NCBI RefSeq assembly: GCF_008932115.1 | Contig: NZ_CP044543.1 | Location: forward strand, 6,206,501-6,270,500 | Length of the DNA: 64,000 bases | Source of the DNA: Bradyrhizobium betae | GTDB lineage: Bacteria > Pseudomonadota > Alphaproteobacteria > Rhizobiales > Xanthobacteraceae | Direction of reading: 5' to 3' | Made by a program: the position numbers and the translations under genes | Shown here: positions 6,843 to 35,904 of the stretch, one piece after another | Numbering within the stretch: the first letter of the stretch is position 1 | Layout: each line of letters begins with the position of its first letter | Notes under the pieces: generated by a model | What the model was told of the DNA's origin: nothing | Databases searched by the model: none | Seen by the model: only the letters and a program-made list of their open reading frames with translations

Positions 6843-8354
6843 TCAGGCCGCGGACGGCGCTTGGTTTGAAGAAATCTGGGTTGGAGGCGAGATGGCGGCG
6901 ATGAGCCGGTCGAGATCGGTGTCATCGTGCGCGGTGCCGCGGACATAACGGTCGGGGCGAACCAGCGCGGCGATGATGCCGTGCGCGCGCAGCCAGGGTC
7001 CGACGCCGTCGGCGTCGTCGGCGGCCAGGATCTTGATTCCTGCCCGCGGAACAGCGTGACGCGCGGCGCTGTCGATGAGCAGCACGTGGTCGTAGCCGAT
7101 CGCGTCGTCGCCGCGGCGGCCGTCCTTCATGTCGAATTGCGGCGCGAGATGGCCGGCCAATCGCAGATCGCCGAGCGCGAGCCCGGGGCCGAGCAGGGGC
7201 TTTTTTACCTCGAGCTTGACCGGCGCATTCTCGCGGGCTTGCCCGGCGGCAAGGCCGGCCTCGATCGCCTTGGTGTTGATGACGCCGCCCAGACGGATGG
7301 CGAGTTCGATGAACTCGCGCACATGCGGCTGGCGCTCGCTTTGATAGGTATCGAGCAGGTCAGGCGAGGCGCCGTCGCGGATGATCGCGGCCAGCTTCCA
7401 GGCAAGGTTGGCGGCATCGCGGATGCCGGCGCACATGCCCTGGCCGAGGAAAGGCGGGGTCTGGTGCGCGGAATCGCCCGCCAGCAACAGCCGTTCATCT
7501 CGCCACTGCTGCGCGATGACGGAATGAAACGTGTAGACCGCGGCGCGCTCGATCTCGGCATCGTCGGGGGTGATCCAGCGCGACAGCAGCTCCCAGACCC
7601 GGGCCGGCTGCGCCACCTCCTGGGAGTCCTCATTGGGGAGGACCGTGATCTCCCAGCGCCGCCGCGTGCCGGTGCCGCGGACATAGGTCGCCGGCCGCCC
7701 GGGATCGCAATGCTGGAGACTGTAGTCGCCGAGATCGTCGCGCGCGCGCTTGAGCAGCACGTCGATCACCAGCCAGCGCTCGTGAAAGCCGAGATCGTCC
7801 ATGCCGGAGCCGATGAAGCGGCGGACCAGCGAGCGGGCGCCGTCGCAGCCGATGACATAGGCCGCGCTGACCTCGCTGAGCTTGCCGCTCGAGAGGTCCT
7901 CGTAGCGGACGCGCACGCCGGTCTCGTCCTGGTCCAGCGCGAACACGTCGCAGCGATTGCGCAAGGTAACATGCGACCAGCGCGAAAGGCCGGCGATCAG
8001 GACGTCCTCCAGGTCGGGCTGGTGAAAGCGATAGCTGAGATTCCATCCCATCGGCGTCAGCGTCTGCGGCCGTGACCAGTCCAGCAGCATCCGGCCGTCC
8101 GCGTCGAGGAACAGCATGCCGGGGCTGAGGATGACATGCGGCAGGACGGCGTCGGCCAGGCCAATGGTCTGGAACACGCGCATGCATTCGTCGTCGAAAT
8201 GCACCGCGCGCGGCAAATGATACGTCCGCGCCTCGCGCTCCAGCACCAGGGTCCGCACGCCGCAGAGGCCGAGCAGGTTGGCCAGCGTGGCGCCGACCGG
8301 GCCTCGGCCGACGATGACGACATCAAACTCTTCGGGGACGGATTTATCTTGCAT
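6843..8354 (-). CDS. MhpA-like FAD-dependent aromatic monooxygenase
   Basis: 503-aa class A flavoprotein hydroxylase, best likened to MhpA (3-(3-hydroxyphenyl)propionate hydroxylase). The N-terminal dinucleotide fold has 'VGRGPVG' (residues 15-21), the DG motif is 'IGCDGARSLV' (D171-G172) and the GD motif is 'LLLAGDSAHQTPPFLGQGM' (G293-D294). The Gly-Arg-Gly in the first motif replaces the usual GAG. It would add a hydroxyl to a phenolic ring using NAD(P)H and O2, giving a catechol-type substrate for the divergent extradiol dioxygenase. The FAH gene follows after 19 bases. The regulator is probably the IclR protein upstream, separated by a 143-base gap with a repeat. Confidence 0.9.
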   Translation of the reverse strand: MQDKSVPEEFDVVIVGRGPVGATLANLLGLCGVRTLVLEREARTYHLPRAVHFDDECMRVFQTIGLADAVLPHVILSPGMLFLDADGRMLLDWSRPQTLTPMGWNLSYRFHQPDLEDVLIAGLSRWSHVTLRNRCDVFALDQDETGVRVRYEDLSSGKLSEVSAAYVIGCDGARSLVRRFIGSGMDDLGFHERWLVIDVLLKRARDDLGDYSLQHCDPGRPATYVRGTGTRRRWEITVLPNEDSQEVAQPARVWELLSRWITPDDAEIERAAVYTFHSVIAQQWRDERLLLAGDSAHQTPPFLGQGMCAGIRDAANLAWKLAAIIRDGASPDLLDTYQSERQPHVREFIELAIRLGGVINTKAIEAGLAAGQARENAPVKLEVKKPLLGPGLALGDLRLAGHLAPQFDMKDGRRGDDAIGYDHVLLIDSAARHAVPRAGIKILAADDADGVGPWLRAHGIIAALVRPDRYVRGTAHDDTDLDRLIAAISPPTQISSNQAPSAA

Positions 8355-19317: not shown

Positions 19318-20568
19318 TTACCGGATTGCGGCGGCCAGTGCGCCGATCAAGGCGGGCGGCGTCACCAGCATGCCGAGCTTGAGGAACGGCCAGGCGCCGA
19401 CCTCGATCTTCTCTCGCCGCAGCGCGACCAGCCACAGGATGGTAGCGAGCGAGCCTGTCACCGACAGATTGGGTCCGAGATCGACGCCGATCAGGATGGC
19501 GCTGACGACAGGCGCGGGCAGATGATCGCTGGCGGCGACGGAGCCAGCGACGAGGCCGACGGGCAGATTGTTGGCGATGTTGTCGGCGATCGCGGTGGCG
19601 AGGCCGACGCTCCAGGCCGCCTTCGTCACGGATTGCGCGACCGCCTGGTGCAGCAGCGCGCTGAGCTGCCCGATCACGCCGGTCTTCACCAGCGTCTCCA
19701 CCATGACGAAGAGGCCGCCGACCAGCGGCAGCACGCTCCAGGACACGCCCCGCAGCACGGGCAGCGGCGATTGCCGGCTGATGAGCAGCACGATCGCTGC
19801 CGTCGCCACGCCGCAAATGAAGGTCGGCAGGCCGAGCTGCTTGTCGAGCGCGGAGGCCGTGACCAGCACGACGCCGATGGCGACGATGCCGAGCGCGGTC
19901 AACTTGCCGCCGCGCCCGAGTTTGGGATGCGGCACGCTGCGCGCGATGGTCTCTTCCTTGAGCGCGCGGTGCTGGGTGAGGCGCAGCACGATGTAGGTCA
20001 GCAGGATCGAGGCCGCCGACGGCAGTGCGAACAGGCGTAGCCATTCGGTCAGCTGCGGCATGCGGGCGCCGAACACGACGAGATTGGCCGGATTGGAGAT
20101 CGGCAGCACGAAGCTCGCGGCGTTGGCGATGAAGGCGCAGACGAACAGATAAGGCAGCGGCTTGGCGCCGGCGGCGCGCGTCGCGGCGTAGACGGCGGGC
20201 GTCAGCACGATCGCGGTGGCATCGTTCGAGAGCAGCACCGTCACCACCGTGCCGACGATGTAGATCAGCAGGAACAGCCGCTGCGGTGAGCCGGCCGCAT
20301 ATTCGACCGCGAGCGCGGCCAGATAATCGAACAGGCCTTCGAGCCGCGCCAGTTCGGCGATCAGCATCATGCCGATCAGGAAGAGATAGACGTCGACGCC
20401 TTTCTCGATGCCGACAAGCGCTTCCTGCCACGGCAGGAATCCGAGCAGCACGAGCGCCGCGGCGCCGAGCACGGCCCAGATCGCCTCCGGGAAGCGAAAA
20501 GGGCGGATGATGACGCCTGCGGTCGCGGCGACGATGATGCTCCAGGCCCAGATGGCGTCAGACGGCAC
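19318..20568 (-). CDS. ArsB/SLC13-type anion permease
   Basis: 416-aa integral membrane protein of the ion-transporter superfamily that includes ArsB arsenite pumps. Landmarks: 'FPEAIWAVLGAAALVLLGFL', 'GVDVYLFLIGMMLIAELARL', 'VTVLLSNDATAIVLTPAV', 'ISNPANLVVFG' and 'DNIANNLPVGL'; the length agrees with ArsB. I give a GTG start at 20568 with GAGGA about eight bases upstream, but the frame is open straight through into the receiver-domain gene up to 20988, so a 556-aa fusion is also possible. No arsR or arsC is nearby, so arsenite is not assured as substrate. Minus-strand unit: kinase, receiver, permease, small membrane protein. Confidence 0.85.
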   Translation of the reverse strand: MPSDAIWAWSIIVAATAGVIIRPFRFPEAIWAVLGAAALVLLGFLPWQEALVGIEKGVDVYLFLIGMMLIAELARLEGLFDYLAALAVEYAAGSPQRLFLLIYIVGTVVTVLLSNDATAIVLTPAVYAATRAAGAKPLPYLFVCAFIANAASFVLPISNPANLVVFGARMPQLTEWLRLFALPSAASILLTYIVLRLTQHRALKEETIARSVPHPKLGRGGKLTALGIVAIGVVLVTASALDKQLGLPTFICGVATAAIVLLISRQSPLPVLRGVSWSVLPLVGGLFVMVETLVKTGVIGQLSALLHQAVAQSVTKAAWSVGLATAIADNIANNLPVGLVAGSVAASDHLPAPVVSAILIGVDLGPNLSVTGSLATILWLVALRREKIEVGAWPFLKLGMLVTPPALIGALAAAIR

Positions 20569-20988
20569 GATCAGTCCTCGGGATACGGATTCATTCGGCA
20601 GCGATAGCGGATGCGGACGCCGCTGTCTTCCCCCGCGGGCGCGGACCGCCATCCGCGATTTGCCGCGTTTCGGGCAATTCGGCTTGCTGAGGTGATCGAA
20701 GGCGCCGAGGCGCATCGCCTCGATCGTGTTGGCGGCGCTGGCGAAGGCCGTCAACACCACGACAGGCGGTGCGTCGGTTCGCGTTCTTATCCGGCGAAGC
20801 ACCTCGATTCCATCCATGCCGCCCGGCATGCGCAGATCGAGCAACACGACGTCGACCTCGCCGTCGAGCGCGGCCAGACCCTCGCGGCCAGACGCAGCGA
20901 GGCGAGGCGAATGGCCGAGATCGGCGAGCGCTTCGGCGAGACCCTCGCGCAGCGCCGCGTCGTCGTCGACGATCAGGACTGTCGCCAT
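20569..20988 (-). CDS. Receiver domain of an NtrC-like response regulator, continuous in frame with the permease
   Basis: N-terminal receiver domain of a two-component regulator: acidic D8-D10, phosphoacceptor D51 ('VVLLDLRMPGG'), T80 and K102-P103 ('DHLSKPN'). Directly after the conserved Lys-Pro the sequence stops resembling a receiver (last helix replaced by a basic, Pro/Arg-rich stretch) and there is no AAA+ or DNA-binding domain. The frame runs without stop into the permease at 20568. A +1 shift just after K102-P103 would read 'KPIAR' and end at a TGA (20573-20571) two bases before the permease GTG, so a single-base indel or a larger deletion may have created the join. It overlaps the 3' end of its cognate kinase by 16 bases. 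Confidence 0.65.
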
Positions 20989-22436
20989 GGCACTTCGATC
21001 TCGAAAATCGCGCCGCCGACGTCCCGGAGCAGGCGAACATTGCCATGATGATGTCGTGCGATTTCGCGAACGATGGCAAGTCCGAGGCCAGTGCCGTCGG
21101 CGCGTCCGGTGACGAACGGCTCGAACAGGCGCTCCCGTACCTCGTCGGCAATGCCTGGGCCGGTGTCTGCCACCCGCAGCAGCAGGCTGCCGTCCCGCCG
21201 GCCTGCGTCCACGGCGATCGTCCCGCCGGCCGGGGTGTTCTGGATGGCGTTGATGATCAAATTGTCGAGCGCACGCTGCATCTGGGACGGATCCAGTTGC
21301 GGCAACGGCGAGGATGCGGGCCCGGTCCCCGCGGTGAGCGCGATGCCCCTGGAAGAAGCGAGGTCGCGATGGCTCTCGACCGTTCGCGCAAGGAACGTCT
21401 CAAGATCGACCTCCGCCATCCTGGGCTCGCGGGCCTGCGTCATCTCCAGGAGGTCGCGCAACAGGGTGTCGAGCCGGTCGACCTGCTGGAGAATGGCGTT
21501 CAGCGCCGCTTCGCTGCGTGAGCCGTCGGCAACGGCCAGCGCGTTCTCCGCCTTCAGCCGCATGGCGGCGATGGGGTTGCGGATTTCGTGGGCGAGACCA
21601 GCCGACATGCGACCGAGCGCTGCGAGCCGCTCTGCAGCAGCAGCGCGACGCCGCTCGAGCGACAGGCGCTCACCGGTGCTGTTGAGCGCATCGACCAGGC
21701 GGTCCAACTCGGGCGCTCCGGTCTGCGCCAGCCGCGGCAGATCGATCGCGCTTTCCCGGCTGTCGTCGAGGGCAGTTTCGATCTGGTTGATCTTGCGCGA
21801 CCAGACATAAAGCACGCGTGCGAGCCATGCCGCCGAACCGAAGATGGTCAGCGCAAGCACAGCAAGACCCGCGAGAAGCTGATTGTACGCGGGTCCTTCC
21901 GCCGCGAAGGCCCGCGTCATGGTCCATCCGGTGACCCCCGCCAGCGGACCGCGCAAGGGGCAGGCGTGAACGATCAGCACCTGGGACCGGCCGGGCTGCC
22001 GGATCGAGGCAGCGCGCCCCGATCGCAGTGCCTCGGCATTGACATCGCGGATGGTGTTGAGCTCGGCCGAGGGAAGGTCGGTCTTCGGTCCGGTGCCTTC
22101 ATAGGTCGGAAAAGCGTAGGCGAGGGAGCCCTCGTCGGCCTGCCAGACGCCGCCTTCGACGCCGGGAGCGTCTGCCAGCGCAGTCCGGGTGACGGTTGTC
22201 AGTTGCTGCTTCAACTGATCGTCGATCGGTTCGCCGGTCCAACCCACCACGAAGAACTGATAGCGGTCGGCGAGGTCGCGGCAGGCGCGCGCCACCAGTT
22301 CTTCGGACCGGGCGAGCCGGGCGTTGGCCGTCTGCTGGAAGGATTCAAACAGCAGATAGCCGGTGGCGACGCCGGATGCGACCAGCATGATCCAGAGGGC
22401 GAGCAATCGAGAGCGAAGCGAACGCATGCAGTTCAA
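20973..22436 (-). CDS. Sensor histidine kinase (NtrY/PAS-less, HisKA type)
   Basis: 487-aa membrane sensor kinase. TM1 is near residues 10-30, TM2 near 185-207 ('LLAGLAVLALTIFGSAAWL'), with a periplasmic domain of about 155 residues between. The HisKA box is 'GRMSAGLAHEIRNPIAAM'; the ATPase domain has 'LIINAIQNTPAGG', 'VADTGPGI' and 'GTGLGLAIVREIARHHHG'. The domain order matches kinases that pair with NtrC-type regulators, yet the only receiver gene downstream is the shortened one fused to the permease frame. The kinase itself looks intact. Confidence 0.92.
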   Translation of the reverse strand: MNCMRSLRSRLLALWIMLVASGVATGYLLFESFQQTANARLARSEELVARACRDLADRYQFFVVGWTGEPIDDQLKQQLTTVTRTALADAPGVEGGVWQADEGSLAYAFPTYEGTGPKTDLPSAELNTIRDVNAEALRSGRAASIRQPGRSQVLIVHACPLRGPLAGVTGWTMTRAFAAEGPAYNQLLAGLAVLALTIFGSAAWLARVLYVWSRKINQIETALDDSRESAIDLPRLAQTGAPELDRLVDALNSTGERLSLERRRAAAAERLAALGRMSAGLAHEIRNPIAAMRLKAENALAVADGSRSEAALNAILQQVDRLDTLLRDLLEMTQAREPRMAEVDLETFLARTVESHRDLASSRGIALTAGTGPASSPLPQLDPSQMQRALDNLIINAIQNTPAGGTIAVDAGRRDGSLLLRVADTGPGIADEVRERLFEPFVTGRADGTGLGLAIVREIARHHHGNVRLLRDVGGAIFEIEVPWRQS

Positions 22437-22460
22437 ACGCGCAACTTCTTGATCGGCGCC

Positions 22461-22901
22461 TCAGAACTTCACCGCGAGCAGCACCGCCCCGGCGCCGATC
22501 ATGGCGATCCCGACCCAGCCCTGCGTGGTCGGACGCTCGCCGAGAAAGGCGAAAGCGAACACGGCGACCAGCACGACGCTGAGCTTGTCGATCGGCGCCA
22601 CCAGCGTGGCGGGACCGAGCTTCAGCGCGCGAAAATAGCACAGCCAGGATGCGCCGGTCGCAAGCCCCGACAGCACCAGGAACAGCCAGGTCCTTGACGA
22701 GACCGCCGAGGGCACCGCGAACTGGCCGGTGAAGAATAGCAGCACCGCGAAGGCGATCAGCACCACGATGGTGCGGATGAAGGTGGCCAGATCCGGATTG
22801 ATGTTCTCGACGCCCACCTTGGCGAAGATCGCGGTGAGCGCCGCAAAGCAGGCCGAGAGCAGCGCCCAGCTCTGCCAGGCGGAGAAGAGGGCGGGTTTCA
22901 T
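22461..22901 (-). CDS. EamA-domain small transporter protein
   Basis: 146-aa membrane protein equal to a single EamA repeat (drug/metabolite transporter fold) with five hydrophobic segments, including 'WALLSACFAALTAIFAKVG', 'TIVVLIAFAVLLFFTGQF' and 'WVGIAMIGAGAVLLAVKF'. The motif 'CYFRALKLGPATLVAPIDKLS' is typical of this short EamA group. Small one-repeat members are thought to work as dimers. The start MKPALFSAW at 22901 is preferred; the open frame extends upstream into the repeat region. Minus strand, 24 bases ahead of the kinase gene, though a functional link is not evident. Confidence 0.82.
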   Translation of the reverse strand: MKPALFSAWQSWALLSACFAALTAIFAKVGVENINPDLATFIRTIVVLIAFAVLLFFTGQFAVPSAVSSRTWLFLVLSGLATGASWLCYFRALKLGPATLVAPIDKLSVVLVAVFAFAFLGERPTTQGWVGIAMIGAGAVLLAVKF

Positions 22902-22929
22902 GGCTGTGTTGCCTTCATCTGGTCGTTCG

Positions 22930-23095
22930 CACTCCGCTGTCGTCCCGGACAAGCGAAGCGCAGATCCGGGACCCATACCGCGGAATCCATCTTCGGGCAC
23001 ATACGTCGTCGTTCTTCGCCAAACACGATCCTGTGGTTATGGATCCCGGATCGGCGCGCCGCTTCGCGGCGCTTGTCCGGGACGACAGCGGAGTG
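22930..23095. repeat. Long inverted-repeat element with 26-base arms
   Basis: Left arm at 22930-22955 (begins CACTCCGCTGTCGTCCCGG, ends ACAAGCG) is perfectly complementary to the right arm at 23070-23095 (CGCTTGTCCGGGACGACAG onward to GAGTG). The inner 114 bases contain further paired pieces (CAGATCCGGGACCCATA against TATGGATCCCGGATC). It lies between two minus-strand genes and contains no open frame of note. It resembles the BIME-like dispersed repeats of Bradyrhizobium intergenic regions (established for the genus in general; copy number here not testable). Confidence 0.8.
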
Positions 23096-35819: not shown

Positions 35820-35904
35820 GCGCTCGTGGCGGAATTGGTAGACGCGCTGCCTTGAGGTGGCAGTGAGTAAAATCGTGGGGGTTCGAGTCCCTCCGAGCGC
35901 ACCA
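35820..35904 (+). tRNA. tRNA-Leu (GAG anticodon)
   Basis: 85-base class II tRNA. The acceptor stem GCGCTCG (35820-35826) pairs with CGAGCGC, discriminator A, and CCA is encoded in the genome (35902-35904). The anticodon arm is TGCC-TTGAGGT-GGCA, so the anticodon is GAG (reads CUC/CUU Leu codons). The long variable arm and GGTTCGAGTCC T-arm are typical of tRNA-Leu. No integrase or target-site duplication was seen next to it. Confidence 0.97.

Follow-up and report, generated by a model that had tools for sequence, protein, structure and literature searches.

A receiver-permease reading frame in Bradyrhizobium betae is probably the scar of a 3,760-bp deletion

A 556-codon open frame in the 64,000-nucleotide stretch of Bradyrhizobium betae DNA analysed here (the window) joins a receiver domain to a complete permease. 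Comparison with relatives, the closest one found being genome G008 (locus L038), indicates with a probability of about 90% that this frame is the scar of a single 3,760-bp deletion, and neither a selected signalling permease nor a one-base error. In the proposed course of events, one deletion in the window's lineage would have left the first 103 codons of an NtrC-type regulator gene fused to the 3' end of an MFS transporter gene just before the permease, with the frame staying open by chance. An eye-catching domain fusion in a single genome may thus turn out, as soon as relatives are compared, to be the scar of a deletion.

Layout of the receiver-permease frame

The frame starts with ATG and has no internal stop (Table 1), and Pfam matches Response_reg at residues 4-108 (88.6 bits), CitMHS from residue 163 and ArsB from residue 169. 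The sequence-only reading of this DNA had described a kinase gene followed by a receiver that continues unbroken into a permease, and both points hold, as domains of both halves are present in one frame and the kinase frame, which also has an ATG at codon 4, overlaps it by 16 bases. The kinase frame itself starts 24 bp downstream of the EamA-family gene. An Rfam scan of the window returned a tRNA at 35820..35901 and nothing else.

Table 1. Features of the receiver-permease region in window coordinates.
Feature	Position	Strand	Basis
EamA-family membrane protein gene	22461..23000	-	Pfam EamA, 84.8 bits; same place in G008
Sensor histidine kinase (HisKA, HATPase_c), 487 codons from TTG, unbroken	20973..22436	-	Pfam
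Probably accidental 556-codon open frame (receiver remnant, linker, permease)	19318..20988	-	ORF list, G008 comparison
NtrC-type receiver remnant, codons 1-103 and one base	20679..20988	-	G008 regulator comparison
Probable deletion join; 3,760 bp of G008 (L038 4999..8758) missing	20678..20679	-	Alignment to G008
MFS transporter gene end, last 28 codons and stop (and one base)	20591..20678	-	G008 comparison
GAGGA, likely ribosome-binding site	20579..20575	-	Six bases 5' of permease GTG 20568
Complete ArsB/CitMHS-type permease, 416 aa from GTG	19318..20568	-	Pfam, relatives

The permease is 95% identical to that of G008 and is matched over its length by CitMHS (142.9 bits, cut-off 31.9) and ArsB (90.4 bits, cut-off 22.2). 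It is of the same complete type as the "arsenic transporter" (ArsB/CitMHS permease) of Bradyrhizobium records, from which it differs in standing in frame with receiver codons. For the NCBIfam ArsB subfamily it reached 158.2 of the 457 bits needed (G008 orthologue, 163.6), far under the cut-off, so arsenite is not established as its substrate. The GAGGA, its spacing and the GTG are the same in G008 and G026, and 118 of the best 120 database relatives (8,000 candidates scored) are 416-424 aa long, i.e., the permease alone. The old MFS stop lies 22 bases 5' of the GTG, which now falls within a longer open frame. The earlier suggestion that a separate permease could still be made from its own GAGGA and GTG is supported by this kept start site.

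Comparison with G008 points to a single deletion

One strand of L038 carries a kinase, a 453-aa NtrC-type regulator, proteins of 266 and 201 aa, a 423-aa MFS transporter and the 416-aa permease. The window aligned to this locus as two collinear blocks (91.9% over 2.8 kb and 95.6% over 4.2 kb), which meet at the join and skip what lies between. On its left side the join ends with the first base of regulator codon 104; on its right come one base and then the end of the MFS gene in another frame. Since the join enters the MFS end, the linker-like stretch before the permease is mostly out-of-frame MFS coding sequence, its MFS part being out of frame with the receiver and with the permease alike. 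A deletion that took an AAA+/HTH module had been among the options of the sequence-only reading, which was right about the deletion and too modest about its size: judged against G008, the regulator has lost the receiver end together with its AAA+ and Fis-type HTH domains, and a sigma-54-type promoter motif, both small genes and almost the whole MFS gene are gone as well. The direction of change appears to be loss here, not gain in the other genomes, a reading that rests on the cut regulator and MFS genes.

A one-base indel, arising in sequencing or replication and breaking a normal receiver gene with a stop after it, had also been proposed. In its favour, the +1 frame was described correctly: it reads KP-IAR and ends in a TGA two bases 5' of the permease GTG. 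However, regulator codon 104 and the join point are 3.76 kb apart in G008, and the 200 bases past the join, which belong to the MFS gene, are identical to G008 at 193 positions when compared 3,760 bp further on, versus 51 when compared with the continuing regulator. These counts rule the indel out, leaving it practically no probability. "KPIAR" as a trace of the receiver was discarded as a coincidence because its bases come from the MFS gene.

Another possibility is an assembly artefact, with the full operon still present in the strain. The join was seen in assembled sequence; the genome is in 2 contigs and 100% complete, and the deleted genes were found nowhere else in the assembly. Repeat collapse is unlikely because the longest word common to both breakpoint neighbourhoods in G008 (50 bases either side) is 7 bases and the two sides have no in-register homology at the G008 breakpoints. 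Taken together, we regard an artefact as improbable. Repeat-mediated deletion was rejected along with repeat collapse on the same observations. Relocation of the lost genes within the genome was rejected as well, as neither the regulator nor a copy of the missing DNA was found elsewhere in the assembly, the latter giving only 8 weaker matches, 6 of them at 65-68% and the other two short, at 72 and 82%. End joining (Ku/LigD) is one idea for how the blunt join came about.

The receiver remnant and the lost regulator

Up to the Lys-Pro, the receiver remnant equals the 453-aa regulator of G008 at 102 of 103 residues. Past this point nothing of note aligns; G008 reads IGRAELKDLLCRLPERMP there, and its sequence after the Lys-Pro, IGRAELKDLLCRL, which by the receiver fold would be the last helix, is replaced by the linker. 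It is this comparison that establishes the loss of the receiver end. Pfam is of little help here because the Response_reg profile has no more than 111 positions, and even in the intact G008 regulator the match ended at 108. In the G008 regulator, Response_reg is accompanied by Sigma54_activat, an AAA lid and HTH_8, whereas Pfam found neither the AAA+ sigma-54 interaction domain nor the Fis-type HTH DNA-binding domain in the 556-aa frame. The remnant is thus nearly identical to the matching part of the regulator that stands with a kinase in L038, and differs from that regulator in lacking the AAA+ and DNA-binding domains and the receiver end, which bears out the claim that the receiver loses its last helix and output domain right after the Lys-Pro. 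The best NCBIfam names for the G008 regulator and kinase (NtrC/AtoC and AtoS/ZraS) all scored under their cut-offs. We infer that the receiver in its truncated form no longer works as a regulator.

The join is found in one genome

A selected fusion was sought as an architecture present in more than one lineage; the 32-base join (at most 3 mismatches) was found in a single one of the 265 genus genomes, that of the window. Of these 265, 41 have a homologue that covers almost the whole regulator (59-100% identity), at 43 places and with zero internal stops; none was found in the window's genome at E<=1e-100. Among the matches listed for 195 genus genomes (the window's included), the window's own was the only stop-free match to the whole frame. 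The strongest other matches listed cover the permease half, most from about residue 81-143 and a few from 66-69, and some relatives, e.g., G008 and G026, have a receiver match at 96-97% about 3.7 kb upstream. Matches in G067 and G157 span residues 4-555/556 with one TGA inside; in both genomes (L046/L047), a hybrid kinase whose own receiver gives the match directly precedes the permease, from which a stop separates it.

At the protein level, none of the best 120 of 8,000 scored database candidates has both halves, and these 120 cover 71-75% of the query, i.e., the permease. A search with residues 92-145 gave none at E<=0.001 among 106 candidates, a weak result as longer-N-terminus permeases such as P0001 were also missed. 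The window's own 556-aa frame appears in neither protein listing and is therefore probably not in the database as such. An 812-aa database protein (P0028) seems to be a wrong-frame MFS reading that runs into the permease.

These results bear on the possibility that the frame encodes a functional signalling permease, in which the kinase phosphorylates a receiver tethered to the permease N-terminus and so controls transport. The frame is open, and the receiver Asp and Lys residues, which usually form the phosphorylation pocket, lie within the kept part of the sequence. Kinase and receiver are without decay on the window branch (see below), and in the sequence the permease start is close to the first hydrophobic stretch and the linker is Arg-rich. 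However, the join is confined to a single genome, the receiver end past the Lys-Pro has been replaced, the linker is out-of-frame MFS sequence, the native permease start is kept and no two-half protein was seen among the best 120 hits. The real signalling-permease fusion entertained in the sequence-only reading finds no support in the distribution of the join or among the best 120 database proteins, and we consider it very unlikely. The same low probability is given to a one-step birth of a kinase-coupled transporter, in which a translated, membrane-located receiver-permease would be bound or phosphorylated by the unbroken kinase, with the permease on the kinase's transcription unit.

An open frame across the join is unremarkable

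At the local base composition, 37 codons stay open with a probability of 0.47, and a third of joins have the right phase. The permease frame was open back to the equivalent point in 10 of 21 scorable loci of relatives, 9 of them with the window's phase (78 loci were given, of which 52 aligned only in part and 5 had no recognised start; the start was the first fitting ATG, GTG or TTG, and a few genomes occur twice). In G008 a TGA three codons 5' of the GTG closes it. The open frame of the window does not exceed chance expectation and is unremarkable.

That a deletion between adjacent genes of an operon can fuse them by accident is a general idea, and the window likewise has a clean loss between genes, a frame open by chance and a single lineage. 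It differs from the general case in that the permease has retained a start of its own and does not depend on fusion for its expression.

The missing DNA contains a sigma-54-type promoter motif

Motifs were scored against the sigma-54 consensus TGGCACG-N4-TTGCW in 21 fetched loci with an intact regulator (duplicates omitted), which cover part of the 41 regulator-bearing genus genomes. All 20 Bradyrhizobium-type loci examined, G008 and a record titled Frankia included, have a motif 46-47 bases past the regulator stop, and the Pseudomonas locus L132 has one 111 bases past it. Scores were 14-16 of 16; for each stretch no more than 3 of 300 shuffles scored as high, and 0-3 of the 104-190 160-base tiles per locus did so, the site's own tiles included; the general rate of scores >=14 was 1.7% of 3,398 300-base tiles. 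In all 23 loci with an MFS gene and no regulator, the 300 bp before the MFS gene were free of sites scoring >=14. Within the window, the best score was 11 of 16 between 20988 and 20569 and in 22437-22900. The regulator would act at this sigma-54-type site. Because the motif is inside the deleted piece, the regulator output domains and their likely target promoter were lost together. In G008 the motif (L038 7644..7659, reverse strand) and the first listed ATG of the 266-aa frame overlap, which makes a later start probable for this protein.

Expression and selection after the probable deletion

With the kinase frame so close to the EamA-family gene (24 bp), the kinase, receiver remnant and permease are probably on one transcript. 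After the deletion the kinase would have no output, and induction by it would be lost. The permease would be transcribed from the EamA-kinase side instead of from the putative kinase-controlled sigma-54 promoter, and translated mainly from its own GTG, although some 556-aa fusion may arise as a by-product. Most likely, then, the kinase's transcript now also serves the permease, which has lost its sigma-54 promoter and activator and starts at its own GTG, and the deletion has probably changed how the transporter is controlled.

Base changes were polarised with 14 outgroup loci, giving approximate per-base counts. On the window branch, nonsynonymous/synonymous changes were 12/40 for the kinase, 2/8 for the receiver, 4/20 for the permease, 5/10 for the EamA gene and 15/36 for the upstream hybrid kinase (770 of 825 codons), compared with 21/45, 0/10, 13/30, 10/14 and 8/46, respectively, on the G008 branch. 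One of the two receiver changes keeps Arg as Arg, and the two receivers differ at one residue of 103, a count too small to decide. No clear relaxation of selection was seen on the window branch for kinase, receiver or permease, suggesting that the deletion is recent or that the parts are still used.

The intact unit in relatives

Gene content was classified at 70 permease loci (L056-L125) from the best 80 loci of the scan. Most are from Bradyrhizobium, alongside a Rhodopseudomonas locus, two loci from alphaproteobacterial MAGs and a record titled Frankia; at 8 of the 70 the upstream sequence is too short for full judgement. Kinase, regulator and MFS gene are present at 17 loci, the MFS gene without kinase and regulator at 23 and none of these at 25, the rest being 4 with a partial MFS gene and no kinase or regulator and 1 with a partial regulator at a contig end. 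The kinase-regulator part is therefore often absent beside the permease, and the window is a case of partial absence.

Narrow literature searches returned no description of a unit of kinase, NtrC-type regulator, sigma-54-type motif, small-protein pair, MFS transporter and ArsB-like permease. This conserved unit of the intact relatives is possibly the more useful by-product of the analysis. The window's strain is a natural mutant without regulator and promoter, and its comparison with intact relatives could reveal what the system senses and moves.

The two adjoining small proteins of L038 (6214..6819 and 6855..7655, reverse strand) are related to each other (37% over 180 residues) and gave no Pfam or NCBIfam match. 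In L112, L115 and L132, both small-protein queries match one single place. At the Pseudomonas locus L132, kinase, regulator, one small protein, MFS transporter and permease are present with 32-59% identity, which extends the unit beyond Bradyrhizobium. The record titled Frankia sp. RB7 (L059) carries the operon at 80-95% identity to Bradyrhizobium-type genes, and its name or assembly is probably wrong.
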